In this document: positions 41,240-64,000 of the stretch, piece after piece
How positions within the stretch are numbered: position 1 is the stretch's first letter
How the letters are laid out: each line of letters starts with the position of its first letter
NCBI GenBank assembly: GCA_021234155.1
Contig: JAJEKV010000039.1
Coordinates: 2,294,001-2,358,000 of the forward strand
DNA length: 64,000 nucleotides
Source: Isoetes taiwanensis
Taxonomy: Eukaryota > Streptophyta > Lycopodiopsida > Isoetales > Isoetaceae
Direction: 5' to 3'
Notes under the pieces: generated by a model
What the model saw: only the letters and a program-made list of their open reading frames with translations
Database searches by the model: none
What the model was told of the DNA's origin: nothing
Position numbers and translations under genes: made by a program

Positions 41240-42300
41240 ATGTGCAGTGTTGAAGAAGACAGAGGTAAGCTTCTTGCTTTTGCTGCATTGTTTTTATCTG
41301 CTATGTCGATGAAGAGGGCAGCCAGAAAGGCTCAGAGTGGTCGCTCCTCTGGCCCTGCTTCTGTGAGCCATGTGTTGAATTCCAATTCCGGAGTGAGAGG
41401 CCAGGATTTCTTTGCTGATCAGGATTGGAACCTGATAGATGTGAGTGTGACTCTAGGTTTGTCTGGGCAGGATGTCCCTGTGAGTTTCTACGATGGCCTT
41501 GTCGGTTTTTGTGATAGGAGGTGTGTTGCCGGAGCTGTAGCTATGGAAAGGGGTGCTACTGTAGACCACTTGCACTGTCAGGCTGTCTTTAGAGGGCGTT
41601 TCAAAACCCCTAGGGCCATGAATGATGCCATTAAGAAGGAATTTAACTGGGCTAGTAAGCCTCCTGGTATTATCCTGGTCTGTAAAGCCTTGAAGAATAC
41701 CCGCCTTCACTGTTTTGAAGGTATGGTTGGTTATTGTATGAAAGATTTTGGAAAGGTCCACTATGTCTGTCACCTTCATAATATCAGTGAGGATTGCATC
41801 GAGAAAGGTAAGGATTTATACCTGAGATGGGGAGCTGGTGACACCAAGAACTTAGTTGCTTGATAATAAGAATTTGCTTAATCGTGCTGCCCATTATGTT
41901 AACTATCATGGCAACCGTAAGATGACTGCTAGCCTCCTGTTTACATTGGCCAGAATGATCCGTTCTGGTAAGTTTACACTATCTAGTTCTTGGATTATAC
42001 CTTCCAATACGCCCACATTAACGAAAGCACCGTGTCCGGGCAGCATGGAGGGCTCCCTAAATCCTTCTCAATGCATGCCCTCCCACATGAGAACTATTTT
42101 GTTTGGGCTACCTGGGTTGGGTTCGTGCTGCACTAGAGCGAAAATGGCCCAGGAGGAGAAGGTATTGGGATGATAGCATCCCCGAGGATGAGCAAGACTT
42201 TAATTTCCGGGATGTTTGTGATGAGTCTTATAGTCATGACAAATTGATGATGTGGTTGTTTTGGAGCCCGGTGTGGATTTCATCCCCGCAATGGGGGTGA
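41240..42300 (+). pseudogene. HUH endonuclease (Rep-like) protein of a mobile element, frameshifted
   Basis: The frame 41240-41863 has the two hallmark Rep motifs. HLHCQ (HUH metal-binding motif) follows CVAGAVAMERGATVD at about 41563-41577, and GYCMKDFGKVHY (catalytic Tyr with downstream Lys) lies near 41730. Spacing of about 50 residues fits single-tyrosine HUH nucleases, which nick and join single-stranded DNA in rolling-circle replication or transposition. Two TAA/TGA stops at 41862-41870 end the frame, but an adjacent frame continues as LLNRAAHYVNYHGNRKMTAS and LLFTLARMIRSGKF, so a frameshift broke one longer protein. No helicase motifs are visible. Eukaryotic transposons of this sort are known as Replitrons. 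Membership is my inference. Confidence 0.65.
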
Positions 42301-45151: not shown

Positions 45152-45370
45152 GGCCTAGTTTGGCTGGGCTCATGCAACCATTTTTATTGGACAAATGGTG
45201 GTCAAGGAACAAGAAAGGAGAAGTCTTCAAGTTTGGGAGAAACAGTGGCATTTTGGAGATGCGAATCCGGCAACGAATGTGAAGCCGGAAATTCTCTCAA
45301 CGTGGCAAAGAGGCAAAGTCAAGGCGTGGCCTGCAGACGACCTTGGAACAACTATAGGCCTAACGGTGTC

Positions 45371-45655
45371 CCTCAATCTTAATCTTGAGTCTTAAACTTG
45401 AGGAATATCTAGATCCCCCTCAATCTTAATCTTGAGTCTTAACTTGAGGTTTATCTAGGTCTCCCTCAATCTTAGGGTACTTTCTCATGGGACTAAAACT
45501 CAGGGGTTTTCTTGAGGTCAGGTGCAATCTAGGTTTAGGACCTCATTTCCAAGTATTCGTTATCCATTTCTCATTTCTGAGGTCTAAGTATTCACTATCC
45601 ATTTCTCAACTCTCAGGTCTAAGTATTCACTATCCATTTCTCGGCCCTCAGGTCT
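45371..45655. repeat. Two short tandem repeat arrays
   Basis: A unit of about 48 bp beginning CCCTCAATCTTAATCTTGAG repeats about 2.3 times at 45371-45475. A 39-bp unit around AGTATTCACTATCCATTTCTC repeats about 2.5 times at 45555-45655. Both lie upstream of the transporter start. A distant relative of the phrase TTCTCATGGGACTAAAA recurs near 49425. Confidence 0.75.
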
Positions 45656-45816
45656 TAGATCTGATTTGCCATTTTATGCCATTTTTGGATCTGTTTATGC
45701 AGGGAAAGGTTGAAGCAATGAGGTTAAGGGCAGATCCCCATCCTGAGTTTGCCATGTCAGCCAAATCCAGACTCAAATCGAGCAATCATTCCTATTAGCA
45801 ACCAACATTTTGAAAA

Positions 45817-46410
45817 TTGGAAACCTACAATGTGTACATGTTGTATGAGATTTGCTCAGGACGACTAACACTGACAGGACAACCTATCAGCAGTAGTATT
45901 GGGGTCCGACAGGGATGCCCGCTCTCTCCAATGTTGTTTGGTCTCTACATTAACCAATTGGAAGATGGGTTATTGAATACAAGGGTGACGAAGCTTAGCT
46001 TGTGCACCATATTATTAAGCAGCTCATATATGCTGATGATGTTAACCTTCTAACCCACCCCGCGAAAGACATGCAACAACATTTGCATGCCCTGGACACT
46101 TTTCTCGAGCCACGGGAATGCAGGTCAATGTAACCAAGACTAAGGTACTGGTTGTCTCACTTCGTGCATCTAAGGCTCCCCTCCTCCACAACGCTACCTC
46201 CGTGCACATTTGCCACTGAAAAAGCGTAGACTGATAGCTTCCATTTGCACAGGTTCACATCACTTGCGAATTCAGACAGGCAGATGGGCCCGGGAAGCAC
46301 GGGAGTATAGGCTGTGTCTGTGTTGCAATAGGGTGCTATTGAAGATGAAAGCCACATTCTACCCCGGGGGATTCACCTTTGATCAGCGTATAACCCATGA
46401 GAGTTCAACG
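45817..46410 (+). pseudogene. LINE fragment: RT palm joined to C-terminal part
   Basis: SGRLTLTGQPISSSIGVRQG continues with CPLSPMLFGLYINQLE. Then, after a shift, QLIYADDVNLLTHPAKDMQQ holds the catalytic DD. It jumps straight to the LINE end RLIASICTGSHHLRIQTGRW (about 46225), so the middle is deleted. Same family as the fragments at 16690-17143 and 25690-26830. Confidence 0.85.
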
Positions 46411-46589
46411 TAGGGGTGTTTTTTGGACCATTTGCGTACGTATACTTAGGGGTTAAGAGTGTTTTTAGGCACTGATTTGGAGCAATATCTATACACAAAG
46501 GGGTCAAATTGCCTTTTAAAATTGCGTATACAAGAAGGTTTTTTTGCTACCCTCCGAACGCAGATGCCATACCCCTTTTATGTATAAGT

Positions 46590-46980
46590 GCACCCCCCAG
46601 GCATTCTACAACATTGTCTGGCATTCAGTCACGTTCGCGCCAACTATGCTCAATTGATCCTGCCTAACCAGTAGCTGCATGCATTGCTGGATACAACGTC
46701 AGTGGGCTCGCTAGGATCTTACCTTCAGGACATCATGGATGCCCGCACTCAGTTATGTCCTCGAACGAGGCATAGAGACATATCATGATATACCATTGTC
46801 AGATATCATTGTACAGTTTCTTAGCATACCTATTACTGCCCAGGTTTTTCCCTGGAAAACCCTCTGGGGCGGGGTTTTTTTAATCCTAGCAGTAATATGC
46901 TTTGCTGTATTCCTTGTGTGAGTCCCATAGGCCAATTGGTCTCCGCGGACGATAAAAAACAATTCAATTCAATTCAGTTC
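46590..46980 (+). pseudogene. LINE 3' end
   Basis: YAQLILPNQ, a stop, then LHALLDTTSVGSLGSYLQDI, followed by a GC hairpin-like CCCTCTGGGGCGGGG and an (ATTCA)n tail at about 46960-46980. It is about 70% similar to 47690-48080. The stretch 46411-46589 has no coding sign. Confidence 0.7.
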
Positions 46981-47460
46981 ACTATTCAGAGGCAAAATAT
47001 GGAGGTAGCACCCATCTACAAGTACCTGGACATAAAGTTTCCCGCTACCACATACTGGATTACTTCTAGAAGTCTGGGACTCATTCATATTCCTGGCTAT
47101 CTAGAATAAATTGGAGCAGGTAGAGAAAGCCTTTCTGGAGTGGGCACTTGGGGTAAAATCCACAGTCCTCTATCAACTTCTTTTGCAGGAGACATGTTTC
47201 TTATCTTTACAGCGAGCAACAGTCGATCCCCACATTATCTACTTCCAGAAGGTAGTCGGTATGGGCAATGATCATCTCTCAACCTGGCTTATACAGTGGC
47301 CATGGGTCCGTAGTGCCTCAAAACATGTTGAAAGGAGAGACAAGCTCAGCGGTTCTTCCAATAGAATGTGCAAGAGCACAGGTGCATACAGTTTGAAGCT
47401 AAAGAGGATCACCATCACTTGCGGCTGTACTTTGATACTTTTGCGATACTAGTGCCCTAG
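46981..47460 (+). pseudogene. LINE fragment: post-palm region, second partial copy
   Basis: KYLDIKF (the usual YLG motif area), then KAFLEWALGVKSTVLYQLLL and QRATVDPHIIYFQKVVG correspond to KAFLTNSLGVKDTVPYPILL in the fragment at 26421-26825. Stops and deletions are present. Confidence 0.75.
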
Positions 47461-47559
47461 AACAGATTAAGACAATACACTATCAGCTTCAGGTCAATCC
47501 CATGCTTACACGAGGTTCACAATGGTACCTACATACACATCTTATCTTAAAAAAAAAAG

Positions 47560-48080
47560 CATAGATTGATAACTTCAATTCGCATAAGTGCATATTGCCT
47601 CCGAATTGAGACAGGCACATGGGCTTAAGAGGTGCACAAGAATAGCCTCTAGTTGCCCGCAAGGGGCCATTGAAGATGAATGTCACACGCGCAGCAATGT
47701 CCAGCATTCAATCACATCCGTCCCTGCTATGCTGAGTTGATTCTGCCTAACCAGCCGCTTCATGCGTTGCTGGACACGACTTCAGTGGGTTTGCTAGGAT
47801 CTTTTCTCCAAGATATCATGGATGCGCACACTTGTTTCTCCAAGATATCATGGATGCGCACACTTGGTTATGTCCTCAAACATGGCACTAAGATTAAAAT
47901 GTATCATATGTATCATTGTACAATCTCTCAGCATACTTATTACTGTCAAGTTTTTTCCCTCAAAATCCCCTCGAGGAGGGGATTTTTTAATCCCCGAAAT
48001 AATATGCTTACTATAATCTTTGTTTGGTTCCCATAGGCCAATTGATCTCCACGGACAATAAAAATCAATTTAATTTTCAA
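47560..48080 (+). pseudogene. LINE 3' end, second partial copy
   Basis: Ends the fragment from 46981: CYAELILPNQPLHALLDTTS, GLLGSFLQDIMDA, then CCCCTCGAGGAGGGG (palindromic) and an A-rich end near 48060. An internal 32-bp duplication disturbs it (47803-47866). Confidence 0.7.
47803..47866. repeat. Perfect 32-bp tandem duplication
   Basis: TTTCTCCAAGATATCATGG... at 47803-47834 is repeated exactly at 47835-47866. Confidence 0.95.
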
Positions 48081-50199
48081 AAGTGCGAGGTGTCTATGTC
48101 GTAGTTATGATAGCTTTGTACTTTTTAAGAATAGAATAGAATAGAATAGATTTTTTAAGGGGATGCTTTTAAAAGTCCCCACATATTTGTCTGTAGTTGT
48201 TTAAGCCCTTGTATGCTAAGAAGTTGTCAACATGCTTCTAATTTGGCAGCAATTAAAAAACCAGCCAATTTATGATGATCGTTGATACGAATACGAAGAA
48301 TCACAACATTATGGGAAAAATGATATGTTATTGGAAACGCCATCAGAGTAACAGAAGTTTAAAATTCTCATCAGCAAATCAACATAGTCCTACTTGTATC
48401 TGTGTTAAGAGAGGGCTTAAACATGAGGAAGAATGCTCGTAGCTTTGACATCCTTTTAAGATTGCCAAGGAACTTTTGTTGGCACAAGCAATGTAAAGCA
48501 TTGTTTATGAAAGAATGTTCCAATTATCTACGGTGAAGAAAACAAATTCAAAAGGAATATTTCAATTGTATATGGCGAAGAATGAAATAGATAGATAGAT
48601 AAAATAGAAAAAAGAGAATGTTTCAATTGTATATGGTGAAGAATAAAATAGATTAAAATAAAGCAATGTTACAATTGAAGAATGGACTGGCATGCACATA
48701 GGCAATGACGTGAAATGACACTCCAAGTGTGGGGTTTTTTTAGTTATTTATTATTCATTTATTTCTTAAATACAGGGACATTTTAAAAATATTAGGGCAC
48801 TTTTAGAAATCTTAGGTTTCTTTGTCAAAAAGATATGAGCAAGTGCAATGTTTCTAATATGTGGATGAATAGAAAGATAGAACATACCATTTGTCATGAC
48901 AACACAAGTCAAACAGAGTCCTTTCAAAGCTAGTACACGGCCATATTTATATATTTTATTCAAAAGATCTCAACATTAGCAGGGTCCCTGATTTTGAAGG
49001 AACAACTTTAGAAAGAATATACCTAATGGACCATGGAGTGTGACAAGTTTAACAAGGATGTAACATCGAGCATAAACACATGGGAACCACTTTGGTCAAA
49101 TTTTGCATTTCTTATACCTCTTTTAAATCACCACATAGGACTGTGACAAATAGTCCTAGTGAGAGCTCTTGTGGGCTTTCATAGAACACGCAACTTGGGA
49201 GGGGAGGTTTTCTCTCAAAAACTTAGAGTAGGGGTTTTTAAAACTTAGGGAGTGATGGTCTTCTTGTATCATTTTGGCCTCACTGGACAATAAAAGGCTA
49301 GGCTCCACCTCATGCATTTTAACTTAAACATGTAGTTGAATGCAATTTGTTAACATCTATAATGTGCAACGTTAGATCAAAATTAGACCTAGATATTCCT
49401 CAAGAATATGGGTGTTTTCTCATGGGACCAGAAACTTGAAGGTGGTGGCAAGGTCTACCTCAAGGCCCATCTCCATAGGATTTTTTTATGCCTCGGTGGC
49501 AAGGCAAGAAAAAGAAAAAGCATATCCATTACCTTGGTTCTGCTTCATCCCACAAGTCATTAACTTTAGAAAATTCAGATGGGTCTAGGAGACATCTGAA
49601 AATATGAAGCATGTCTAGCTTTGTCTTCTGTTTTACAGATCTTTGTCTTTTAACAACATCGAATTTATCTTCTAGTCTTCACTACAGGCAGTGTATAAAA
49701 AACCTTTTTTTGTTGGTTTTTTAGGAAAAAAGTCTTATCTTTTCTAAACTAATAGAACTATATTAATTTGAACCGAATTGACCCTTCCAAACTCCAACAA
49801 GGCCGCTGTCAAATTTGCAAACATCTCCTCATCCAGGGCAAAAAACAAAAAGGATAGAAGTGTGGAATTGAAAAAACGAATTTGTTGGAGTTTCTTGCTT
49901 GGTTACTACAATTTTGCCCCTTTCTTTTCCCATCCCAATTTGCTGTGCATGTAATGCACTATTTATAAAATGTTTGGGAGATGGTTGTTTAAAGGCATTT
50001 AATAGTGTTAGATATATATTAAATATAATATTGGCATCTCTATACATAAATAGCTTAGTAAGAAAATCCTATCAGTGTAAAATATAACCGAAAAAAATCT
50101 CAGGACCTCTGGCTTCAACCGACCCAAATCCTTATCCGCCATTTTTTGGATCTGCGTATATCCTAGACTATTTCATGTGGATCGAGACATTTTAACTTT
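48081..50199. other. AT-rich DNA without a recognised gene
   Basis: Contains a (GAATA)n run at about 48128-48150, ATAGATAGATAGATAAA near 48590, and two related phrases about 70 bp apart (GTTTCAATTGTATATGG, 48540-48640). No coding features. Confidence 0.45.
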
Positions 50200-50573
50200 A
50201 GGTGGATTGTTTGTTTCAATCCTACGACTTTGTTGCACACTGATGTACATCGTGTTTTACAGGTCCATAGGAGCTCCCGACTATCTTAACCTTTCCCACA
50301 ATCTTTCTCGAGGCACAGTGTCAAAAAGCCTTTGCGAAATCGACGAACAGCAGTAGAGGTCCTGTCATTGATTCCTGCTATCCTTAATTAAGGTGCACAG
50401 TGTGAAAATGTAATCAATGATGGAGTGTCGAGGTCTAAAGCCTGCATGTGCGAGGGCTCCTGCTTCTGTTTTTCCGTCCACATCATCGATTGTTCAAAAT
50501 TCCTCCTGCAGCGTCCTTTCTGTCTGCATGCATATTTATATAAGGGGTGACTTCGTGCACCTTGACTAGGCAT
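50200..50573 (-). pseudogene. LINE reverse transcriptase N-terminal palm fragment
   Basis: Minus-strand reading across two frames gives AGFRPRHSIIDYIFTLCTLI and then FAKAFDTVPRERLWERLR, the finger/palm motif with the first catalytic Asp, followed by GAPMDL. It is isolated from other LINE parts. Probably the same broad LINE type as the fragments at 45817-48080. Confidence 0.75.
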
Positions 50574-50901
50574 TCAGTGTAACAGTAAACCATCGATTGT
50601 AAAGTTTACAGTAGACTAGCAGATCCATTGTTTAGAGTGGTTGTAATCCATTAGGGAGCAAAAGTAAAAGGTGCATCTATCTACGTGGACTATGACCTAA
50701 CATCATCACAACAGGAGTTAGGCCACAAAGAGCTTGCTTAAGTGAGAGGTATAAGTGCTAGGGAACCACCTACTTTGAGGGGTTTCCGGCTGGAAACCGG
50801 CAGCGGCGCCGCCCGCGAGCGGCCAGCCGTAAATCACGGGTAGTCGAAAATTCCGTTGATTCTTTTTACTGTTTTTTGTCTTTTCTGCATCGGCTATGGC
50901 G

Positions 50902-50984
50902 GAGCTCCGCCGATGGCGCTCTCCACGATGGTCGAGGCGCTTGAGCTCTGCTGATGGCGCTCTCCATGCTGGTCGAGGCGCTTG
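50902..50984. repeat. 41-bp tandem repeat, two copies
   Basis: GAGCTCCGCCGATGGCGCTC at 50902 and GAGCTCTGCTGATGGCGCTC at 50943, each followed by GGTCGAGGCGCTT. Confidence 0.85.
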
Positions 50985-51403
50985 AGGTTTGGCTACCTGG
51001 CTGGCGATTTTTTGTTTGAAATGGGGCACTTCCGGAGCTGTGATGAATATTTTATTATCCGTCGAGTTCATTTCTCTGTATAGAGGTCTTGATGCGTTTT
51101 TATGCATTTCTTTGCTGCCTTTTCTTGAAATAGAGAAGAATCTGATGATTTTCTTTATATTTCTTAGGTTCTTTGAGTTCCAGTGGCAAACTCTGTTTCT
51201 AGGTTCCCACCACGAACCAAACAGTGAAAGAAGCTGGCTGTAGCGATGTTGAAGCTCTTGTTGTGTGGCTCAGAACTATTTTTAATGGCATGCAAGCCGT
51301 TGTTTGTGTGTTTAGGGTTACTTACAGCATCAACAATGAAAGCAAGCATATAACTGATTATTTATTGCTGGATTTTATCTGGGCAATGATCTGCAGAGCT
51401 GCG

Positions 51404-51471
51404 GAGCTTCCTGATCTGCACAATGCTGAACTTCTTGATTTGCACAATGCTGAGCTTCTTGATTTGCGGTG
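51404..51471. repeat. 24-bp tandem repeat, almost three copies
   Basis: Units starting GAGCTTCCTGATCTGCACAA (51404), GAACTTCTTGATTTGCACAA (51428) and GAGCTTCTTGATTTGC (51452). In one frame it would encode an ELLDLHNA-type repeat, but no gene surrounds it. Confidence 0.85.
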
Positions 51472-51797
51472 CCTTTAACCTGAGCCTTAGCTTGGGTCTT
51501 TGCTTCTGTTTTAGCTAATGCTTGGTCCTGCGCCTCTGTATGGATGCCGAGAAGTCATGCATGGTTTATATGGGTTTCAGAGAGAATGAGCTGTTACGCT
51601 CATAGTTGTATATGGGATTTGAAATAGAGAAATACTGTGCTTTTTACTTCAAATATTGTATCCTTTGATTGTTAAGCAAACTTGTGGCGGCGCTCTAAGC
51701 GGCGCCCCCAGAAACTACAGAGCAAAAAATTACCCATTTTAAACAATGCATCAAAAATCCAGGAATTTTCGACTACCCGTGGTTTACGAAATAATAA

Positions 51798-52061
51798 AGG
51801 TGTCGTTGCTCTGGTTTCGGGAAGGGTGAGAATTTTTCGTTCGCCTGCCTCAATGTTAGTCGATATTGTGCAAAACAAAACAGATTCTTCATTTGTAAGA
51901 ATGCCAAGGCTGGTGCTCAAGCTAGTGCTACCTCTCAGGGTGCTGCAACTACTACTGATGCTACTGATCCAGCCCCCAAGGGTGCCACTACCACTGTTGT
52001 TGCCTCTGCAACCTGCCATGGGACAATTGCCACTAATGTCACTAATGAGACATTCACATAG
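51798..52061 (+). CDS. Possible last exon of a secreted Cys- and Thr/Ala-rich protein
   Basis: The frame opens directly after two TAA stops and an AATAATAAAG, possibly a 3' splice site. It encodes a Cys-rich part (RCRCSGFGKGENFSFACLNV, then YCAKQNRFFICKN) followed by a Thr/Ala-rich tail (TTTDATDPAPKGATTTVVAS) ending NVTNETFT. Codon use looks real in this frame only. The Asn-x-Thr sites suggest a secreted protein. It may belong with the signal-peptide fragment type seen at 37310 and 52154. The family is unknown. Confidence 0.35.
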   Translation, partial: RCRCSGFGKGENFSFACLNVSRYCAKQNRFFICKNAKAGAQASATSQGAATTTDATDPAPKGATTTVVASATCHGTIATNVTNETFT

Positions 52062-52153
52062 GCTTCTTTTTTTGTAGTAGCGGGAGTCTGCAGCAGCTCG
52101 CTCCAACGCTGCTTCAAATTGTTTGTCCGCCACGCTGAAGGGTACATGCGAAA

Positions 52154-52311
52154 ATGGCTATTGCTGGAGCGGCCTGGCTGTTCCTGTTGTAGCTATTGCT
52201 AATTTCTATCCTCTTTACCAACGGTGCAACTGGAGAAAAAAAGGAACTTCACCCATGTGAATGCAAAAGGTATAAAGGCCATGGTTGCAGCTATGTGGTT
52301 GTAGCAGCTGC
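52154..52311 (+). pseudogene. First exon of a small secreted Cys-containing protein, cut by the LTR element
   Basis: ATG at 52154 opens MAIAGAAWLFLL, a TAG at 52190, then LLLISILFTNGATGEKKEL, HPCECKRYKGHGCSYVVVA. This is a signal peptide and a short mature part with Cys residues. The reading ends at 52311, where the retrotransposon's 5' LTR begins, so any rest of the gene would lie beyond the element outside this window. Confidence 0.55.
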
Positions 52312-53955
52312 TGTGACGGTCCAGGGGAATATACGCCATAAATACGTATATTCCTGGATCCGTCACCATACAAGTCTATCTTCATAGCCTTGTATACCAT
52401 AGATTGTGGCACTAGGGGGCATGGCTAAGTTATTCTCATAACTTAGCCAACCATAGGTTAAGCCATTATCCACGTGGCCTTAACCTATTGGGGCACCGCC
52501 ACACAGGACTCACCCGATTGGTGCCACGTGGCATCCTAGGTGGACCTAACTTATATAGGCATAAACCCTAACCCTAGACCTCTTTCCAGCCCTAGCACCC
52601 AGAGACTCACCTACTGCTTGAACCCCGCCAACATCGTTTCTTGTGGCATAGATAGGCGCAAAGAGCCCCAGCCAGGTAGAACTTCGTTCTTGGAGTAGGA
52701 GCGGCATCTCGTGAGTCCGGAGACCATGGAGGCACACCGGATCCGGAGGGAGAGCTTGGGAGCGGTATGTAGGATAGTAGTTGTGATAGCTCATCCGAAT
52801 TAGCATTCCAGATGTGCTAGTATCTTGTATCTAGAGTAGAGCCATCCTAGAACCCATATTCAACATCTTGAACCCTAATCAAGGAACCCTAACCATTAGT
52901 TAGTTGTATGATTAGGTTAAGATGTTCTTCTTATGATTATTCTCATGATGTGATGATTATGTGATGATGGTTGATCATGTTTGCTCCTCTTGTATTGGGA
53001 AGGGGGGTAGAGACCTAGAGCCATATGTAGTATGCTCCTAGAGTAGATCCCTTAGTTCCTATTAGTTGCGGCCTGTGCATAGGAGCCCACCGGGCTATTG
53101 AGGCTATGATATGACTCAGCCCATATAATGGGGCTAGAGGGAAAGTGGAGGGAGGATCCCTGCCGAGTGGGGGCTTCGGGGGATCCCATAGTGGGCTAGG
53201 CTTATGGTCGGTCACTTCGTGTGGGCCGAGCATGGGTCCGACACCTCCTGGGGCAATGGTGTTGCCCTGCCTCTCGAGAGCTGCAAGTGTTGGCTTGGCT
53301 CTCGTTTTGGGGGTTCACCGGTCAGTGCAATCGCGTGTGTCGCCACGATTCTCTAGCCCTAATGCACCTCTAGATCCCGGGAAGGAGAGATGCAACCCTT
53401 CCTCGCCTCATCCCGGACCGGGGAGATGCAACCTTGGAGTAGTCCCGATGGGTGATGCCATGGGATTGCGTGTCCCGAAGGCTAGAGTCCCGTCGAGCCC
53501 CGATCTAGCCCATTTGCAAAGTATGCACGTGAGGGGCGGATGGAGTGGTCAACCCTAGCCATTGTTCTATGCCGAGCCCTCGCCATTGCCATGACTCGGG
53601 TCGCTCTATCTTGAGGCCTAGCCCGGTCGGTCATCCTCCTTATGAGTCCGAGGGGTAGGAGCTCTCATGTTTTATGGTTCGTGATTATCATCTTTGCCTT
53701 GGTTTATGAGTGATGCACTACCCTTCGAGGTAGTATTTGTATATGTTGATGCTAGTTCTCGACGTGTTATCGCCTTCATTTGTTATAGGAGCCCATAGGG
53801 GAAGGGCGCGCAAGACACCTACGTGTTCCCTTCCCGCACTAAGAGTCACCTCAGAGTGCGGGGTAGACGAAGGGCCCATGCGGTTGTTGAGCCGGATGAG
53901 GGATTTCCTGCCGAGTGTACGGCCGGGCGCCGTACGTTTAGCAGGGAGCGTCACA
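52312..53955 (+). repeat. 5' LTR, 1644 bp
   Basis: Bounded by TGTGAC and GTCACA. The first 55 bp can fold into a hairpin (GTGACGG...CCGTCAC with AATATACG/CGTATATT). U3 ends near the TATATA at 52553. The sequence AAACCCTAACCC follows at 52563. The first 122 bp match the 3' LTR apart from a few changes, all inside the hairpin. Confidence 0.93.
52553..52558 (+). promoter_or_regulatory. LTR TATA box
   Basis: TTATATAGGC about 240 bp into the LTR, upstream of a telobox-like AAACCCTAACCC. It would start element transcripts near 52585. Confidence 0.5.
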
Positions 53956-53956
53956 A

Positions 53957-53968
53957 TGGTATCAGAGC
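53957..53968 (+). promoter_or_regulatory. Primer-binding site
   Basis: TGGTATCAGAGC, one base after the LTR, complementary to initiator tRNA-Met. From 53969 to 54528 lies an untranslated leader without ORFs. Confidence 0.95.
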
Positions 53969-54433
53969 GATGTTCTTGGTTGACCAAGAACTAGCACTGA
54001 CCATAACCATGAAGTAGTCTAACAGGCCTATAGGGGTGTGAAATAAACATTTCCACCATCGAACCGCGGAAATGGGGGAAAAATTTTTCTCCTAGGAAGT
54101 GGGTCAGGACTTAGGTTAAATGTTAGACGAAGGTTTGAGTGATTCAAACGCATCTTCTAGTAAATTTGGAGTGAAAATTATGCATCTGTATCAAATTTCA
54201 CCAAAAATGGGTCGAAGAATCATGCCAATCGGAGACCCAGGTGAAAAATGGCGCAAATTCATAAATTGCACTTCGAACCATTAGGAAAATTCGAAAATTT
54301 AAAGATAATATCAATTAATATAGGTTAATATATACATTAATAGTTAAATAATTATTAAATATCTTGTAATTAATAAGGGGGGCTAATAAATAGGGGTAAT
54401 TATGGTAGGAGAATATTCCCAGGGATCCTCCTT

Positions 54434-54442
54434 TTTAAATAT
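54434..54442 (+). promoter_or_regulatory. TATA-like box before the H3-like ORF
   Basis: TTTAAATAT lies 95 bp upstream of the MARTK start codon, and a C/T-rich stretch follows as in plant leaders. Suggestive only. Confidence 0.3.
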
Positions 54443-54528
54443 CTGACACCTCATTTTCTCTCTCCAACCCTTCACCTCCAACTCTCTCTTGCTCAGCCTT
54501 TCGTCACCCATTTTCTGAACCATAAGAT

Positions 54529-55631
54529 ATGGCTCGCACCAAAAACGCATTGCCCAGAAGCCGTGACAAATGCCTACACTTTCGATGGCGCACTTAGCAG
54601 CGGGACGCCATGTGAAGAAGATCCCGGAGCACCTCCGACCCAAGAAGGGGGAAGAGGAGCTTCCTCCCAGCAGCAGCAGCAGCGGCGATACTTATCACGA
54701 TGCCGAGGAGAGCCCCAACAGCAGCTCGTCATCGGGAGGCACACAGAGAACAGATGAGACTCGCCACTTCGGGCCCTCAGACACCGAGGTGGAGGAACAG
54801 GTTGAAGAACAGTGGAGGAGCAAAGACCACCACCGCATCAAGAAGCCGGCCCTTCCGCCCAAAAAGAGGGAAGGAAAAAGTCATGAGTGGCCGAGGAGGA
54901 GAGGGCCGCCGTAAAGAAGCTGAGCGGAAAGGGAGCCGAGGGAGCAAGAAAGGCGCATCGAAGAGAAGGAACGACGGCCTCACGGACCGGCTGCTATTGA
55001 AGAGCCCCGGTCAGAGGAGGAGCCACAAGAGGAGGGCGCGGAGGAAGAGGAGGAGGAGGGGCAGCAGGACCCCGACGCTGGGCCACCCTACCCCAGTGGC
55101 CGGAACCACCTAAGGTGGTGAAGAAGCAAAAGGTAGGGGAGGGCATTCAAGGGCCCAAATAGACCGCGAAGTTCAAACGGAAGATGGTGGTGATATTAAG
55201 GAGTACCTTCGCCGCTGGACGCAGGTACAATGAGTGGTATTGCCGCCAGAAGTGCGCCAAGCCGTGGGAGGGCGGCAGTCAAGAAGAACCAGCCCAAGCC
55301 ACCCCCACCGGGCCGAAAAACCCAAGAGGGAGTTCACCACGGGCCTAACAAAGACGCACGCCTCGGTGTTTAGGGAGATTCGCACTTCGCATGTGCACGG
55401 TCTCCCCGATAAGGAAGGCTCGGAAATGGCCTCCTTAGAGAGGTGTTGCAGCAGTTCCGGACCGATTATAGGGTTACCCCTCTAATGACCCGGGCCCTGC
55501 AAGAGGCTTCCGAAGCAGAGCTGGTTCAGCTCTTCGAGGAAGGGAACCTCTGCGCTATCCATGCTAAGAGAGTTACCCTTATGCCCAAGGATATTCACTT
55601 AGCACGGAGGATTCGCAGAGAGAGGCCTTAG
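54529..55631 (+). pseudogene. Histone H3-like protein with long tail inside the retrotransposon
   Basis: The ATG at 54529 opens MARTKNALPRSR, the canonical H3 beginning. The frame then shifts several times through a long tail of charged and Ser-rich sequence (VKKIPEHLRPKKGEEELPP, acidic EEEEEEGQQ near 55060). From about 55340 the H3 fold appears: HASVFREIRTS (alpha N), then in another frame [20 protein letters not shown] (alpha 1, loop 1), [19 protein letters not shown] (alpha 2) and [20 protein letters not shown] plus RRIRRERP (alpha 3). Dimer-interface Cys, His and Asp are kept. Loop 1 has H3 length. An H3 of this kind would enter nucleosomes. The tail of over 200 residues is unlike normal H3. 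The fold is the best preserved part. Frameshifts lie at about 54560, 54915-55240 and 55420. Confidence 0.85.
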
Positions 55632-55862
55632 GCCTCAAATTTTGTAAATTTTGTTAGAAAAGAGAAACTCCCATGTAATTGTGTTTCTTATTAATATAAA
55701 AGTCACTTTCCCTCTGTAAATTAGAAAAATGTTGTATGCTTGAAATATAGGAAATAGAACCCAATTGTGGTAGAATTCTTCATAGCATGTCTAGAAACAC
55801 CCTAGAAATCATGACTACAACAAAATTTTGGCAAAAAAATCATCAAAAATGCTAAAAATTGG

Positions 55863-56137
55863 GCCAACCGGGTGAGACCGCGCCAATGGCCTCTGCGTCC
55901 GCGACGCGGGCGCGTTTCGCGCGGATTCACCCGCCTACCCCCAAAAACATGCTTTTTGGTGTCAGTTTTGCTCAAAATAAGTTGCTAGTTAGGTTAGAAT
56001 CGGCATAATTAGCCATATTAGCATCTTCAAATTCCCTAAATTGACCAAAAATTGGCCCAAAACAGGCCAACCGGGTGAGACCGCGCCAAATGCGTCTGCG
56101 TCCGCGACGCGGAGGCCATCCGCGCGGATTCACCCGG
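55863..56137 (+). repeat. Two CpG-rich 72-bp direct repeats between the extra ORFs
   Basis: Copies 55863-55934 and 56065-56137 share GCCAACCGGGTGAGACCGCG, TCTGCGTCCGCGACGCGG and CGCGCGGATTCACCC. Each copy is bounded by GGGTGA and TCACCC, so it can fold on itself. They stand upstream of the TATA box at 56319 and could be promoter elements. The flanks (55632-56318) contain no gene. Confidence 0.85.
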
Positions 56138-56318
56138 GTCAGGCCATCTTTGAGCCAAATTAGCCAAATTTGATCCAACAAATTGCCATGTAGTGTTTCT
56201 TGCTTTGTTTTGCTTAAGTTTGCACTTCATGGTAGTTCATTTGGACACCCAGAGCCATAGAACCAAGGTCGTCTTAGGTAGGCACCTTTTTGCACGAACC
56301 CCGAGGTCACCCATAGTC

Positions 56319-56328
56319 TATAAAAATA
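56319..56328 (+). promoter_or_regulatory. TATA box before the second extra ORF
   Basis: TATAAAAATA, 118 bp before the ATG at 56437. A similar box is at 34569 in the related cassette. Confidence 0.55.
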
Positions 56329-56436
56329 GGTCTCATTTGCCATTTTTCCTTCTACAGAACTGCTCCCAGCCCCTTAGGCGATTTTCTGAATCTCCACTGA
56401 TCTTCGCAAGCCAATTTCTACACCCTTTCCTGCTAA

Positions 56437-57641
56437 ATGGCGCCCAGCAACTTTGAGAGATGGTACAATGATGCCAGCCATATCCATCAGCTTCCAGTAG
56501 ATCAAGCCTTCTCTGTGTTTGATCACTTGTTTGATCTTCATGCAACCTTGACTAGAACACCCTACTACACAGACATTATGTGCCAATATGACCAGCAGGT
56601 CCTGCCTTGGGAAGTTAGACTGCCTCCTAGGGGAGGGAATTGGGTTTCCCTTGAGACACTTACCCAAGCCTTAGGTCGAGAGTTGGCAGGGATCCAAAGG
56701 CAAGAAGCGCCTATGGGATAGGACTAGGACCATGCCCGATTACATGACCTGCTTGCACATAATAGGCATAGGTACCTTTCACTCGGATGACCCTTGCCCT
56801 CTTCATGCACTATAAGTCAATCAACAAAGTAGGGGAACCCTCTGTTCAGCCCTTAGACTTAGCGCCACTTGATACCCGTAGAGGGCCCGGGATCAAATCC
56901 GAATATAGAGTCCTCCGCCCTCACGAATACTATGGCACGACGTCCGGGGGCACCATCTCTACAGATCCATGAAGACTACGAGCAGCTAGGGGAGCGTAAC
57001 CCGTAATGGGAGAGCAGGGGAGGCAACAAGAATGCGGAGGTATGCGTTGAGGCATGACGACGACGTGGAGAACGGCCACCACCCACCCGGGTCGGCATCA
57101 CGCCTTTGTCGCCGATAGTCATCGACGGGGAGGAGTACATTTTGCAAATGACATCCTCAACTTGTCCTATTGTCGAAATCAGGGTCTCCTGATCGATGAG
57201 CTCTTGGGCATGATAGCACACCTGAAGAAAACCAAGACCTCATCGACTACTCATACCAGGAGATTCCAAGGGAGTCGGGCGAGAGACACTCTTATGTTTG
57301 GCGCAAATGCCGGACATAGCGACCTATCGGCCAGATAAGGGAGATCTATCGGCCAGGAACCTATCATCTCGAGAGGAGGAGTTCCAGCAGATCTGAGCAC
57401 ACTCTACAAACCGGGAAGGGCCCAAGCTCAAGCCGACCCGGTTCGAGCCGAGAGCATGAGGGAAGGGTCCAAAGAAGATCAACTTGGACAACGCAACCAA
57501 AGCATGTGGAGGGATCATGAAGACCTGATGGCGGTGGATGCCTACGGTGAAGCGGCTTCGAGGAAGGGCACCGGATCGCGAGGCGTAGGGAAGGGCACGG
57601 CACGCCGCTACTATCTTCCAGCCCTCACCAAGGGCAAATGA
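56437..57641 (+). pseudogene. Second extra ORF of the retrotransposon, unknown protein, broken
   Basis: The first 94 codons are open: MAPSNFERWYNDASHIHQLP, then FSVFDHLFDLHATLTRTPYY and VLPWEVRLPPRGGNWVS. After a stop at 56719 coding-like pieces continue in changing frames (LALFMHYKSINKVGEPSVQP, RRGPGIKSEYRVLRPHEYYG, IDGEEYILQMTSS, later GSKEDQLGQRNQSMWRDHED), so the original protein was probably over 350 residues. It has no zinc knuckle and no gag or pol motif. A related start is found at 34662. The function is unknown. An accessory protein or first gag-like product is possible. Confidence 0.5.
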
Positions 57642-58295
57642 TAGTCTTCCACAAGGAGTTCAGCCCAAGGGGAAGAAGAATCCGGCACTTCTCATAGCAC
57701 TTTCGGCCGGGCAGCACTCAAGATATAAGCCCATGCCGATCACATCATTCTTTTCAACAGCAGGCGGTCAGGCTCCATTGCCTCGACTTTGCGAGAGGGG
57801 CACCTTAGGGGCCAACACTTTCGAGTGGTAGCGGAACAAAGACCGGGAACTTCCTGGCGGAGATGGCCCGAAACACTTGAAGGAAGATCGACGAGGAACA
57901 TCTTGCGCAACCTCGGCAAAGGCCTCCCATTCGGGGATGTCAAGAACTTCTTCAGGCTTTCGGGAGGCCATTGAATAGTTGTAAAATTTTCTTAAGTTTT
58001 GTGCTAAATGTTTTGTACCCATTGTGCTAAGATATATCTACCTTATCATGTAATCCTTATGTATTAATGACTATTAACTGTTTTACAAATGCAAGGCTTC
58101 GTATGATTTCTTTATAACTAAAAATAATTCAATTACAAGTAAGATTGATCAACATCTAACCCAAATAAAATGTATTGATGATCAATCCTTGCAAAGAAGG
58201 AACTCAAGTCACGGGATCTCAAGACCAAAGACCGACCACATAATTGGGTACCAAGGAACTTGTTTGGCAGAGAACAAGAAGATTTTGAGCAGGAT
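57642..58295 (+). other. Spacer before gag
   Basis: Only fragments of reading frame (to about 57975), then AT-rich DNA. A gag start upstream of 58296 by a non-ATG codon is not needed. Confidence 0.4.
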
Positions 58296-59460
58296 ATGTC
58301 ACCAGAAGCAGTCAATGCAAGGTTGGTGCAGATGAGGAACCAAATGCAACATCTCATCAATTGGGCGACACCTCTCATGAATGCACAGGAAGATGGTCCT
58401 CCACCTCCACCTTGTTTTCCGGGTGGTGACGAAGTCCCTCAGCAGGAAGGGGAGGCCAACCAGGGGAACGTTAGGGATAGGAGAAGGAAGAGGAGAACCA
58501 GGAGTCCACCATCATCTAGCTCCAGCTCATCAGACAGCTCTTCCAGTGAGGACAGCTCTAGCTCCGACAGTCAATCTGGCACACCTAAGGCAAGAAAAAG
58601 GGCGAGAAAGACAGATGACTATCAGAAAAAGGTGGATAGTGCTATGAGCAATGTATGGAAGACAAGGAAGCTCGGCCAGTTCTCAGGGAAAGACAGATCA
58701 GGTATGGAGGCTGAAGCATGGCTTGATGAAATGGAAGAATTTGGCAACTTATACGGTATGAAAGACAAGGACATAGGGAAAGTTGCTACAGCTAACCTTA
58801 TTGGACCGGCAAGGATCTGGTGGAAGGGATATGCTAAGTCCAACAAGCTGAAGAGGAACAATTGCAGGTTTAAGACCTTCAGCAAGGCTTTCCGCAAGCA
58901 CTATGTGCCAAGATCTCATACTAGTAGACAGATTCAGCCAGCTTTTCTGAGTTGAATCGGGGTAGCTTATCGCTGGCTAAGTATACCGAAGAATTTATGA
59001 GGCTCAGTACGCATGTTCCCCGAGTCTCGAGAGGCAAGCCGTGGATACTTATATTGAGGGGTTGAACAGCAATATCAAGAGGCTCGTTAGAGCAATCAAC
59101 CCGAAGTCACTGCACCTGCGGTAAGATAAAGCTATAAGTTTGGAAGAGGCACCAGCAACTCCAGCAGAGAAACAGTCAACCTTCAGGGGTAAGAGTTCAG
59201 CGCAGTATCAGGGGCAATATCAGGGTAAGCAATCAGCAGCTACACCATCAGGGAGTCAGCAGCAAGGTAAGGGTCAGAACAAAGCTTTTGGGGACCGTAA
59301 GCCACAGAATGCATCAGGGGGCAGTGCTCTCAAGCGTCTCCTAGACAGTTTGCCGAAGGAAAAGAGACAGGAATGCATTGAGAAAAAGTTATGCTTCAGG
59401 TGCTTCCGGCCGGAACCACCGAACACATGATTGTCCATTCGTCATGCGATCGGCCTTGGC
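58296..59460 (+). pseudogene. Gypsy gag with zinc knuckle region, broken
   Basis: The ATG at 58296 (MSPEAVNARLVQMRNQ) starts a gag with a Ser/Asp-rich and basic linker (SSSSEDSSSSDSQSG, KARKRARKT). The retrotransposon gag core follows: FSGKDRSGMEAEAWLDEME, IGPARIWWKGY and FSKAFRKHYVPRS. A shift at about 58950 is followed by ELNRGSLSLAKYTEEFMRLS. A Gln-rich tail leads to the knuckle start KKLCFRCFRPEPP near 59385, whose His/Cys half is out of frame. It normally forms the particle shell and binds element RNA. Confidence 0.9.
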
Positions 59461-59639
59461 GAGAACTTTTGGATTGGGACTCCCCAACCGAAGCCGGACG
59501 AGGACGCGGGGCGGCGACCAGCCAGGAGGGCGGGGACTTCATAGATGGTGAGTGCCACATATGTGCAAACATTGAGGCAATTGATATAGAGAATCGGTCA
59601 CCGTCATCATCATGGTACCGGGATCATAGATAGTAATCC

Positions 59640-60000
59640 TTATGTAGTCCTCATAGATACGTAGCTCTCATAATTTTGCATCTCCTAGATTGGCTGCTCT
59701 AATGAAGAACAAGGTATTGAAGTCTAAGCCAAGGCCCGGTAGCTATGGCAAAAACGGCGCCATTCTAAGACACTAAGGGGAGGAGGATCACCTTTGACAT
59801 AGACCTTAGTGGGGCTAAGTGGCCGATGGGAGCAGAAGTCATGGACATCGGAAGATATGATCCGATAGTGGGGATGGAATTTTTGAAGCCAGCCAAAGCC
59901 ATCATTGATTGCGACTGGAATGAAGTCACCATGGCGGCGCACCGGCGGCGACAAGTTGATAGTAAGAGGTAAGAAGCTAGATTCTCCCATGCGGTGTATT
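59640..60000 (+). pseudogene. Retropepsin-type protease region, broken
   Basis: VVLIDT (59645) begins the active-site loop, but the next codons are disturbed by a small deletion, and SHNFAS follows in another frame. Downstream RITFDIDLSGAKW, EVMDIGRYDPIVGMEFLKPA and IIDCDWNEVTM are the usual protease tail of plant gypsy elements. From 60000 to 60280 a frame-broken linker (HAVYFFEAAKEEYRK, GLFQFKDVFPDEI) leads to reverse transcriptase. Confidence 0.75.
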
Positions 60001-60279
60001 TCTTTGAAGCAGCTAAAGAAGAGTATAGAAAGGAATAAGGTGGACTACATCTTGAGGATGGAATCGGTTGAGCCGTGCAAGCGGGAGGGAAGTGACCCAA
60101 AGGGGAATCGGTTGCCCGAGGCGGATAGCAAGGCTTATTTCAGTTCAAGGATGTATTTCCGGATGAAATCCGGCAGTACCACCTTATAGGGGTGTGGAAT
60201 GTGAGATCACATTGGCTCCGGGATCACGAAAGCCTACCAAGAAGCCATATAGAATGAGCACCCTGATTGATTGAGCTCA

Positions 60280-60917
60280 AGAAATAGCTTCAGGAATTGC
60301 TCGAGCTTGGATTTATAAGAGCAAGTGTGTCTCCTTTCGGAGCACCTATACTCTTTGTGAAGAAGAAAGATGGGAGCTTAAGAATGTGCATAGACTATCG
60401 CCAGCTTAATAAGCAGACGATAAAGAACAAGTATGCATTGCCAAGGGCAGATGATCTAATGGACCAGTTACAAGGAGCAAAGGTATTCTCTAAAATTGAT
60501 TCGAGGTCAGGATACCATCAGATAAGAATAAAAGAAGAGGATATCCATAAGACCGCTTTCAGAACGCGGTATGGTCACTTTGAGTTTACAGTAATGCCCT
60601 TTGGACTATTGAATGCTCCAGCAACGTTTATGCGCCTCATGAACGACATCTTCAGAGACTTCTTGGATGAGTTTGTTATTGTCTTCTTCGACGACATCCT
60701 AATCTACAGCAAGTCCCTTGAGGAGCATTGTCAGCATCTCAGGAAAGTGTTGGAGAAGTTGAGACGTCATCGGTTGTATGGGAAGCTCTCTAAGTGCCAC
60801 TTTGCAACAGGCCGAGTGGAGTATTTGGGGCATGTAGTAACATCCGAGGGAATCTCCACAGATCCATCTAAGATTGAGGCAATAGTTGATTGGCCAGCTC
60901 CAAGGAATGTGGCGTAA
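60280..60917 (+). pseudogene. Gypsy reverse transcriptase core, open frame
   Basis: The best preserved part, open from 60297 to a TAA at 60915: [52 protein letters not shown] (first Asp), [34 protein letters not shown] (catalytic DD; FFDD instead of the usual YIDD) and [20 protein letters not shown]. It copies element RNA into DNA in the particle. No internal stop. Confidence 0.95.
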
Positions 60918-61450
60918 GTAAGAAGCTTTCTGGGTTGGCGGGATATTACGAAAAGTTAGTGAAGGACTTTGCTAAGTGGGCGTCCCCTCTGTCGGACCTC
61001 ACTAAGGCCAAGAAGATTAAGGATTGGACTAGCCATTGGTTAGAGAAAGTCCAAGCTTCTTTTGAGAAGCTTAAAGAGGCCTTAACAACAGCACCAGTGC
61101 TTGTTCTTCCAGATCCGAGTAAAGATAAGTTGGTAGCAACAGATGCAAGCAAGATAGCAACAAAGCGCCTTGATGCAAGAAGGAAGGGTAGTAAGCCTAC
61201 GACTCGAAGAAGATGAACGACGCCGAAGCAACGCTACCCAACCCATGATCGTGAGCTGCTAGCCATTGTCGGGCATTGAGGATATGGAGGCATTATCTGG
61301 CCGGGAAGGAAGTTTTGGTTGGATCTTTGATCACCGAGCCTTCGGTATCTTTTCACCCACCCACTCCTCAACTTAAGGCAAAGGAGGTGGATGGAATTCC
61401 TTGAGGAGTATGATTTTGATATTATATATAAGCCCCGTAAGCTTAATGTT
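60918..61450 (+). pseudogene. Gypsy RNase H region, degraded
   Basis: LAGYYEKLVKDFAKWASPLS is the connection domain. KLVATDASKIA holds the first RNase H Asp. ATLPNPHDRELLAIV-like sequence and WRHYLAGK follow in broken frames (61220-61310), then [14 protein letters not shown] at 61412. Several short deletions prevent a product. Confidence 0.8.
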
Positions 61451-61639
61451 GTAGCGATGCCCTCTCCGTGAGACCATTTCGCACAAGGGCGCATTGTAAT
61501 GCGATTTCCACTCTTCGAGTGAGTTTGGCAAGAAGATTGAGGAGTCCTTGCCAACGGATGTGGACTTCAAGGAGGTATGGGAAAGTCTTTCCAAGGAAGC
61601 CGAAACAGATAAGGAGCGGGAAGCCTTCAAGCATTATAA

Positions 61640-62330
61640 GAAGGCAACCTATTGTATCACAAGCATAAGTTGTGTGTGCCCGAATCATCAGGGGTAAGGA
61701 AGCTAATTCTTCATGACACACATAACAGCCCAATAGCAGGGCATGCTGGCTTCATGAAGACTTATTTCAAGATTCAAGTAGCTACTTCGGCCAGGAATGA
61801 AGAGGCGTATAGCTGCATATATTCGGATTGCCGCTTATGTCGCCGAGACCAAAGCGGAGCAACTTCGGATTCCAGGTGCTCTTGAGCCATTGGGGGTGCC
61901 AAATGCAAAGTGGGAGGTCATAAGCATGGATTTCATCACAGGTCTCCCTAGAACTCTTCGAGGCAAGGATGCATTGATGGTTGTCGTAGATAAGTTATCT
62001 AAGATGGCACATTTTGTGCCTTGCAAGACTACTGACACCGCATTAGATACTGCCAAGTTATTTGTAAGGGAGATTTTTAGACTCCATGGCATGCCTCGGG
62101 AGATAATATCCGATAGAGATTCTAAGTTTATGAGTGCCTTTTGGCAAGATCTCTTCAGCACCATTCAGACGAAGCTCTCTATGAGCACGGCATATCATCC
62201 CCAAACAGATGGCCAGACGGAAAGGACGAATTGGATCATTGAAGACATGCTTCGAAGCTATGTGTGGAACAAGCAGTCCAAGTGGGATGAGTACATCCAC
62301 TTGGTGCAATTAAGCCTACAATAATTATAG
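61640..62330 (+). pseudogene. Gypsy integrase, zinc domain broken, core open
   Basis: LILHDTHNSPIAGHAGFMKT and CRLCRRDQSG are the HHCC zinc region in one frame. The core is open in another (61797-62324): WEVISMDFITGLPRTLRGKD (first Asp), HGMPREIISDRDSKFMSAFW (second Asp) and AYHPQTDGQTERTNWIIEDM (Glu), so the DDE triad is complete. It joins element DNA to the host genome. The stretch 62331-62739 continues as the C-terminal part in broken frames (SPFMVNYGTD, HQMLGDISRLVEEVRGYLL). Confidence 0.92.
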
Positions 62331-62739
62331 CAGGAGTCATCTCGGATGTCTCCTTTCATGGTAAATTACGGTACCGATGCTTAACCCCCTGATACCGCAC
62401 AATCCGTGTCCAAGGTAGAAGTATCCCACCAGATGTTAGGGGATATCAGCAGGCTAGTGGAAGAAGTAAGGGGTTATTTATTGGCGGCAAGAAGTCGGCA
62501 GAAGAGTGTAGCCGACAAGCCTGGGACCGTAAGAGAGTTCAAGGTAGGCGATAGCGTCCCGGTTGAAGATAAAGGTGAAGCAAGCCAAGCCGCGGGATTG
62601 GGAGCTGCAAGAAGCTTGCCCCTAGGTGGGCTGGTCCGCTCAAGATTTTGGAGAGAGTGGGCTCTCAAGCCTACAAGTTGGATCTTCCAGCCCATCTCAA
62701 GGTTCACAAGGTCTTCCACGTAAGTTTATTAAAAGGCAC

Positions 62740-62965
62740 AATCCTAACCCCGAGGAGGTTTTGGATACTCCAACCTTGTTGGAAATGACCGAGGAGCAAG
62801 TAGAAATAGTGCTGAATTGCTTCTTGATAAGTCATTCAAGAAGACTAGGAGGTCTCGGTTCCTCCAATATTTGGTTAAGTGGAAGCACTTACCCGTGGAA
62901 GACGCGACATGGGTATTGAAGCAAGATTTGGAGAAGCAATACCCGTGGTTTATGAAGGAGTTTGA
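62740..62965 (+). pseudogene. Integrase chromodomain, one frameshift
   Basis: PEEVLDTPTLLEMTEEQVEI leads, after a shift near 62815, to LDKSFKKTRRSRFLQYLVKW and KHLPVEDATWV, then LEKQYPWFMKEF. The YLVKWK-x-L-x6-TW pattern is the methyl-lysine reader of chromoviruses, which directs integration to heterochromatin. Confidence 0.88.
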
Positions 62966-63095
62966 TGGGCGAAGTCGCTCTCTACTTGGTCTCAACCCGA
63001 CTTGCCGGTGGTTAGCTAGTATGTTGTTAGTTAGCCTTAAGCCCGGCGCATGCATTCTAGTTACTAGGGTGCATGTGCGGTAACCTTGATCGTGT

Positions 63096-63420
63096 GGGCG
63101 ATGATGGGATCGCCTTTTAGGGCATTCTCTAGGCCACACGCACCAAAAGAGGTGCGCATGACCATTAGGGTCATGTGAGTGAGGAATGAGGCATGGTGGG
63201 CGATGATGGGACATCGACGGATGATCTCTATGCCACGATCGCGGGTACGCACACCGGGCCGTAGGAGGGTCATGGTGAAGGTTAAAGTGATCATCTTGCG
63301 ATGATGGGATCGTGAGACGTTCCCCTAGCTTCAAACCCGTGGGGCATGATGCACTAGGGGTTTTCGGCACCGTAACCGAAAGTACAAGGTAGCACTCGAT
63401 CATGGGCGATGATGGGAGCA
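63096..63420 (+). repeat. Four copies of GGGCGATGATGGGA spaced about 100 bp
   Basis: Near-identical motifs start at 63096, 63198, 63297 and 63404, with related flanks (for example CATGAT and CTCAAATCCG-like stretches). They lie in the non-coding 3' part between the chromodomain and the polypurine tract. Nothing else is recognisable from 62966 to 63865. Confidence 0.85.
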
Positions 63421-63865
63421 TCTTAAATGATCCTTAAGCTCAAATCCGAAGGGCCATGATCTTGGGCAAGGTAGTAGGACAACCTTGAGTCAGTAGTTCA
63501 GCTCAAGGGGGTAAAGGGGGTGGTCCCCTAAAACCACAAATTATTAACTAAACTAACGTAATGTGCTCCTTTTGCAGGCAAGTAGAAGGTGGACTTCAAC
63601 GAGGAGCGCATTACGAGAAGATAGGGGGAGCCATAATTTAGATTATGAACCCTAATAACTCTTACAATAATGTTTTGAATTATCGTAAGAAATAACCGTG
63701 TTAAGGCTATATAATTTTGTATAACTACAAATATAGCCTAAATTTTTGACTTGAACTAATAAAACTTGATTACTATAATAAACTAAAGGTTATGACATGT
63801 TGTTGCTTGTGCAGGCATAAGGTAGGGTCGTCACCTTAGCGCAATGCTGAGGACAGCATTGTCCT

Positions 63866-63878
63866 AAGGGGGGGAGAA
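63866..63878 (+). promoter_or_regulatory. Polypurine tract
   Basis: AAGGGGGGGAGAA directly before the 3' LTR. It primes plus-strand DNA synthesis. Confidence 0.95.
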
Positions 63879-64000
63879 TGTGACGGTCGGGGAATATACG
63901 CCATAAATAATTATATTCCCTGGATCCGGTCACCATACAAGTCTATCTTCATAGCCTTGTATACCATAGATTGTGGCACTAGGGGGCATGGCTAAGTTAT
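63879..64000 (+). repeat. 3' LTR, first 122 bp
   Basis: Starts TGTGACGG like the 5' LTR. The last 70 bases shown are identical to the matching 5' LTR bases. It is cut by the window edge. Confidence 0.95.

Follow-up and report, generated by a model that had tools for sequence, protein, structure and literature searches.

The chromovirus and its H3-like sequence

Near the end of the window (the whole stretch of DNA that was analysed, 64 kb), the plus strand carried an LTR retrotransposon. Its 5' LTR (52312–53955, +, 1644 bp, TGTGACGG...CGTCACA) had TG..CA ends and was followed, one base further on, by an exact match to the primer binding site (PBS) TGGTATCAGAGC (53957–53968, +), which we take to pair with initiator tRNA-Met. 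A polypurine tract (PPT), AGGGGGGGAGAA, and the start of the 3' LTR (63879) were located at 63867–64000 (+), where the window end cut the LTR. Of the 3' LTR, the initial 122 bp lay inside the window, too little to date the insertion well; this piece (63879–64000) matched the start of the 5' LTR with 95.2% identity over 124 columns, the comparable 122 bp of each differing by 2 substitutions and 4 gap columns in 3 gap events. Two of these gap events were single-base run-length differences. Pfam domains were found in the order gag (58260–58955, Retrotrans_gag at 24.1 bits, which equals the Pfam cut-off), reverse transcriptase (RT; 60297–60917, RVT_1 1.6e-39, open over 206 codons), integrase core (61797–62324, rve 8e-11) and chromodomain (62817–63083, Chromo 2.9e-10, residues 3–50 of its ORF), all on the plus strand and with the frames broken between domains. 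Since these four domains lay on one strand, together with a TG..CA LTR pair, a PBS and a PPT, the element was classified as a chromovirus, an assignment that rests on domain content and not on an RT tree. The chromodomain contained the sequence YLVKWKHL, whose L presumably occupies the place of a cage aromatic. Rfam gave no match at gathering scores in the whole 64-kb window. Approximately 4.3 kb separated the PBS from the gag piece, and this stretch held two candidate extra genes.

The first of these was H3-like. Positions 55431–55631 (+) encoded the C-terminal two thirds of the H3 histone fold (H3 residues 71–135) and a stop, with 66 codons and no internal stop. Pfam PF00125 (Histone) matched at 55443–55631 (+) with an E value of 2.1e-18 (67.2 bits, cut-off 26.4). 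At E ≤ 0.001, the fold had matches to 175 distinct PDB sequences, the strongest at 7e-21; the best 60 of the 175 were all named histone H3 or histone-domain protein. Residues 71–135 of a typed canonical H3 were identical to 55431–55625 at 44 of 65 positions (68%), ungapped, with an alignment score of 211 compared with a maximum of 37 in 30 shuffles of the region. The core histone H3 fold was thus recognised by sequence, and one diagnostic H3 segment was exact both here and at the second locus described below. The predicted structure of the H3-like piece was uninformative (pLDDT 48.5). The first-pass annotation had placed an H3 fold inside a chromovirus, on the strand of the element and between PBS and gag; this placement was confirmed by the histone match, the 5' LTR at 52312–53955 and the gag, RT, integrase and chromodomain matches. 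A typed H4 gave no match in the window at E ≤ 1.

Upstream of the fold, a start codon and a broken, charged tail occupied 54529–55430 (+). The sequence MARTK at 54529, identical to the first five residues of H3, lay 560 bp 3' of the PBS, was unique across the six frames of the 64 kb and arose in 3 of 3000 Markov resamplings of the sequence between PBS and fold. Over 15 residues from MARTK, the likeness to the H3 tail was unremarkable (tied third of 2832 ATGs). The MARTK frame reached a stop after 22 codons, and the fold sits in another frame. The intervening stretch was charged, of low complexity and read in changing frames; the best path through 54529–55631 needed a minimum of 5 breaks (stops or frame changes), and shuffles that kept the dinucleotides (n = 60) needed a mean of 6.6 and a minimum of 4. 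Because its breaks fell within the range of shuffled DNA, the stretch from MARTK to the fold was only putatively coding in this copy. The MARTK start reported in the first-pass annotation was therefore retained, but the continuous ORF to 55631 was not. In place of an intact H3 of approximately 135 residues with a canonical tail, the tail was broken and, MARTK apart, divergent, and none of the copies in the window had an intact H3-like ORF. ARKS was absent in any of the three frames at either locus, and ARK was present twice in one focal frame. In a check for the poly(A) of a processed pseudogene, runs of A in the 214 bp downstream of the focal stop reached a length of 7 at most. The MARTK codon was preceded by a TATA-like motif (TTTAAATA) and a pyrimidine-rich leader (54434–54528, +), a putative promoter. 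The spacer between the H3-like gene and the following ORF contained a pair of 89-bp direct repeats (55845–56136, +; 82% identity), each ending in CGCGGATTCACCCG.

Some of the breaks may be assembly noise, since two of the LTR gap events were single-base run-length differences. If all of them were sequencing indels, the focal H3-like gene would be intact in the plant. The LTR starts, with 3 gap events and 2 substitutions, are consistent with this explanation, as is the similar rate of breaks in gag-pol (4.8 per kb) and in the H3-like stretch (4.5 per kb). However, the RT was open over 206 codons, and allowing frame changes did not make 54529–55631 more open than shuffled DNA. We regard an intact gene as possible, if somewhat doubtful; this estimate stands apart from those for the other explanations and is compatible with the best one.

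A second H3-like gene and the ORF2 start

A tblastn search of the window with the focal fold recovered a second H3-like gene (locus 2) 20 kb away, at 34153–34344 (+), with 48% identity and an E value of 5e-16; the next match had an E value of 0.61. Locus 2 extended over about 33481–34365 (+), with a tail and an H3 fold (34084–34344) in one frame. Residues 48–134 of canonical H3 were 60% identical to locus 2 (E 4e-28). The frame of the fold contained 3 stops in 290 codons at 33481–34350, compared with 8 and 22 for the two remaining frames, and the tail (33481–34083) contained 2 stops in 201 codons. Over 33201–34359, 4 breaks were required, compared with a mean of 10.6 and a minimum of 7 in shuffles (n = 60). 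Judged by this open frame upstream of the fold, an H3-like protein with a long tail was probably encoded at locus 2 in the past.

The surroundings of locus 2 contained no recognisable LTR or gag-pol and no exact PBS. The nearest PBS-like site had 2 mismatches and lay inside the gene, and the total of such sites in the window was no more than expected by chance. Locus 2 may therefore not be a retrotransposon. It adjoined a duplicated block containing a dirigent gene. The two copies of the block (14860–19053 and 23929–33182) matched in two parts, with identities of 91.6% and 94.4%; the second copy started inside the dirigent gene (23702–24235) and was split by a copia-type element. A 160-bp exact direct repeat (28875–29034 and 29188–29347) overlapped the start of a copia gag ORF and was accompanied by a match to TGGTATCAGAGC on the minus strand (29174–29185). 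On the other side of locus 2, a self-complementary stretch of approximately 130 bp (35408–35536, 87%) adjoined a DDE_Tnp_4 transposase on the minus strand (35964–36488). Elsewhere in the window, an ORF at 41240–41863 (+) contained the HUH endonuclease domain of replitrons (Pfam PF21859, 3.6e-20), a recently described kind of transposon, and the PPR repeat ORF at 872–1294 is of a style that would point to a fern as host.

The second candidate extra gene of the chromovirus, ORF2, started at 56437 with MAPSNFERWY... and was open over 94 codons (56437–56721, +). It had no Pfam match at E ≤ 0.1, and for its fold (AlphaFold pLDDT 67.4) the best PDB match had an E value of 0.35, above the threshold of 0.001. 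ORF2 was preceded by TATAAA (56319) and a leader with CCCTTAGGCG (56319–56436, +), both of which were also present at locus 2 (TATAAA at 34569, leader at 34569–34661, +). The locus 2 leader ended at a candidate counterpart of the ORF2 start, MASVSFSEWY... (34662–34817, +), with one in-frame stop in 52 codons. The ATG at 34662 lay approximately 300 bp 3' of the H3-like stop. When the 15 residues after each ATG were compared, ungapped, with the focal ORF2 N-terminus as the reference, it had the highest score among the 2826 ATGs of the two strands (23, with 11 for the runner-up). A score of 23 was reached by 328 of 200000 shuffles, and 15 ATGs were present within 500 bp past the H3-like stop of locus 2. 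TATAAA, AATTTTGTTA and CCCTTAGGCG were present in both spacers and in an identical order, an agreement that may also arise by chance.

Other comparisons gave a fainter signal. A first local alignment test of the ORF2 likeness was equalled by 69 of 2000 shuffles, and the spacer DNA scored 58 between the loci, with a shuffle maximum of 60 (n = 200). In an anchored test over 52 codons, 196 of 20000 shuffles scored as high when the stop was treated as X and 54 of 20000 when it was treated as Q, and 34662 ranked second of 870 ATGs. The tails showed no detectable likeness between loci in six frame comparisons (19, 47, 50, 142, 226 and 470 of 500 shuffles as high), nor did the tail DNA (score 29, shuffle maximum 31, n = 40). 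On these alignments, the H3-like gene and ORF2 appear to form a real but faint two-gene cassette. The order of H3-like gene and then ORF2 seems common to the two diverged loci, which argues against a one-off insertion.

The first-pass annotation had set its proposal against the possibility that this copy alone has the histone sequence. The diverged H3-like gene at locus 2, with its similar ORF2 start, answers this in part, but neither an LTR nor gag-pol was recognised with it, nor an exact PBS; an H3-carrying retrotransposon family is therefore only a candidate, and the argument for it rests on two loci in one 64-kb window. A genome contig collection yielded one confirmed H3-like locus among 269 pattern matches (L001:6001–6159, 60%); the contig was filed under a Desulfosporosinus MAG and may be a eukaryotic contaminant.

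Divergence of the folds and origin of the cassette

Over 64 codons, the two folds differed at 25 first, 20 second and 40 third codon positions, with a pS of 0.77 and a pN of 0.34. The low pN relative to pS fits constraint on the protein, and silent differences already present among host H3 genes could also account for it. Within each fold, replacements were no more conservative than in a neutral simulation (P = 0.33 and 0.35), and the stop counts in each copy fit neutrality. The number of positions retained in both folds was 30, with 28.2 expected (P = 0.24), and the same derived residue was present at one of the 9 positions changed in both. Selection was thus suggested by the pair, yet by neither copy alone. 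Given the few substitutions in the comparable 122 bp of the LTRs, the divergence of one third from H3 probably predates the focal insertion.

The focal sequence is homologous to H3 and lies between PBS and gag, and the second H3-like gene is likewise followed by a similar ORF2 start. We favour, with moderate confidence, the explanation that a chromovirus lineage captured a host H3 of the canonical type and kept an H3-like gene and ORF2 as a cassette between PBS and gag. The host gene would have been taken up long ago and carried ever since, in a cassette where ORF2, which has a TATA box of its own, comes after the H3-like gene. Within the mobile lineage, the identity of the fold to H3 would have dropped to about two thirds, and a long charged tail would have taken the place of the H3 tail, most clearly at locus 2. 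The copies in the window would be worn ones, the focal element having partly broken genes and locus 2 being an older remnant. We infer a single capture, vertical descent inside the element and expression. Overall, the H3-like sequence of this chromovirus is real and probably recurrent, and it may be inherited cargo.

Cargo could also be passive: a host H3 gene or retrocopy may have been caught and be drifting without a role, with the second copy either caught by a different element or a host pseudogene. This is the main rival to the mark-dilution mechanism proposed below. The replacements in each fold look neutral, only one of the nine doubly changed positions was shared, and focal 54529–55631 was no more open than shuffled DNA, all as expected of passive cargo. 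Such drift would, however, have to accommodate an ORF2 start that seems to be common downstream of both loci, a tail at locus 2 whose 201 codons contain only 2 stops, and a pS far above pN between the copies. The few substitutions in the comparable part of the LTRs also place most of the divergence before the focal insertion. On this evidence, we consider passive cargo doubtful.

The H3-like gene and ORF2 may instead have entered one chromovirus together, either as a separate unit of mobile or viral nature or as two neighbouring host genes. The pair at locus 2 without a recognised LTR element around it, the separate TATA-like motifs of the two focal genes and the length of the PBS-to-gag stretch (approximately 4.3 kb) are compatible with this origin. 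Against it, the pair lay on the strand of gag-pol and between PBS and gag, and it was not flanked by repeats of at least 40 bp in a scan of 44000–64000, which shorter repeats would escape. Among viral contigs, none of 20 pattern matches to the H3 piece was confirmed; two of 13 pattern matches to ORF2 were confirmed over 22 residues and taken as chance, and there was no phage match. An independent unit therefore seems quite unlikely.

That the element encodes a CenH3 steering insertion to centromeres, as the divergent fold and tail and the centromere targeting of CRM chromoviruses (available part of PMC3059260) might suggest, is highly improbable and was rejected, since both folds scored higher against canonical H3 than against the one typed rice CenH3 used (focal, 211 vs 160; locus 2, 230 vs 185) and needed a gap at the CenH3 loop-1 position.

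Possible function and comparison with known systems

The roles suggested in the first-pass annotation, which were chromatin targeting, packaging of the element's DNA and blunting of silencing, are candidate roles. Plant LTR retrotransposons are silenced mainly via DNA methylation and H3K9 methylation. An element supplying its own H3, if this is true, would attack the substrate of host silencing. In a working copy, the retained region, which runs from helix 2 into helix 3, would be expected to support pairing with both H4 and a second H3. This region and the lack of ARKS led us to prefer dilution or evasion of marks as the mechanism. An expressed H3-like protein would pair with host H4 and enter nucleosomes, where, without the ARKS contexts of K9 and K27, it would dilute the marks written by host enzymes. 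That such a protein would dilute or evade silencing marks on the chromatin of the element is a tentative proposal, and we think it rather unlikely to be correct as it stands. The broader idea that chromoviruses encode their own H3 variant and an ORF2 partner, as a camouflage chromatin that host silencing enzymes are unable to mark, is more speculative still; the variant would have lost the canonical K9 and K27 contexts and gained a long charged tail. No own-H3 route for retroelements was found in the literature among the matches listed. Even as cargo, a core histone sequence carried by an LTR element would be an unusual case, which the second, related copy would help to date.

The bracovirus histone CpBV-H4 provides a working analogy. 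According to the available part of PMC5423620, its extra tail of 38 residues changes host gene expression after it joins nucleosomes, which indicates that such a mechanism can exist. CpBV-H4 resembles the sequence described here in being a core histone of a mobile or viral element with a changed N-terminal tail. Viral histones differ from it in being H4, or H3 of DNA viruses (PMC5423620, PMC9145170, as far as available). Single viral H3s are known (available part of PMC9145170), and in the same text 'retrotransposon' and 'retrovirus' had 0 occurrences. CenH3 shares a divergent H3 fold and a divergent tail; unlike CenH3, the present folds lack the loop-1 insertion and are better fitted by canonical H3.

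The element resembles plant chromoviruses, as described in the accessible portions of PMC6317226, PMC3350952 and PMC2864245, in its LTRs, PBS, PPT, gag, RT, integrase and chromodomain. It differs from them in the distance from PBS to gag, approximately 4.3 kb, and in the two candidate extra genes located there. Some Gypsy elements are marked with additional ORFs of unknown function in a figure legend of PMC2864245. In the available text of PMC6317226, 'histone' occurred once, in the chromodomain sense, and none of four phrases denoting extra ORFs occurred. The first-pass annotation had also linked the chromodomain to the reading of H3 tails. The domain is present, but the link is not secure, because the aromatic cage is partly missing in type II chromodomains of plant elements (PMC6317226) and a partner of these was not found (PMC3350952), according to the portions of both papers at hand. 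A chromatin-related domain in a retrotransposon is also known from an Ectocarpus Gypsy lineage with a C-terminal Tudor domain (PMC12477816, in the part available), which is of the reader type and not a core histone.

Among the matches listed, no H3 gene in an LTR retrotransposon was found in titles or openings of abstracts, a scope outside which most subscription papers fell. A captured H3 is already known from hAT DNA transposons of fungi. No hAT domain was found in the 10 pieces searched by Pfam, and no inverted repeats of at least 40 bp in the scan of 44000–64000, which terminal inverted repeats (TIRs) of approximately 20 bp would escape. In Dothideomycete fungi, H3-like genes are carried by hAT elements of Pyrenophora tritici-repentis (H3L, PMC3538342) and Pseudocercospora fijiensis (PMC6710886), where, in the parts of these papers available, an H3 was likewise caught by a mobile element and multiplied. 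The P. tritici-repentis element contains a further ORF of unknown function (same source). The fungal elements are DNA transposons with TIRs, whereas the H3-like sequence described here has a divergent tail and lies in an LTR chromovirus, between PBS and gag.
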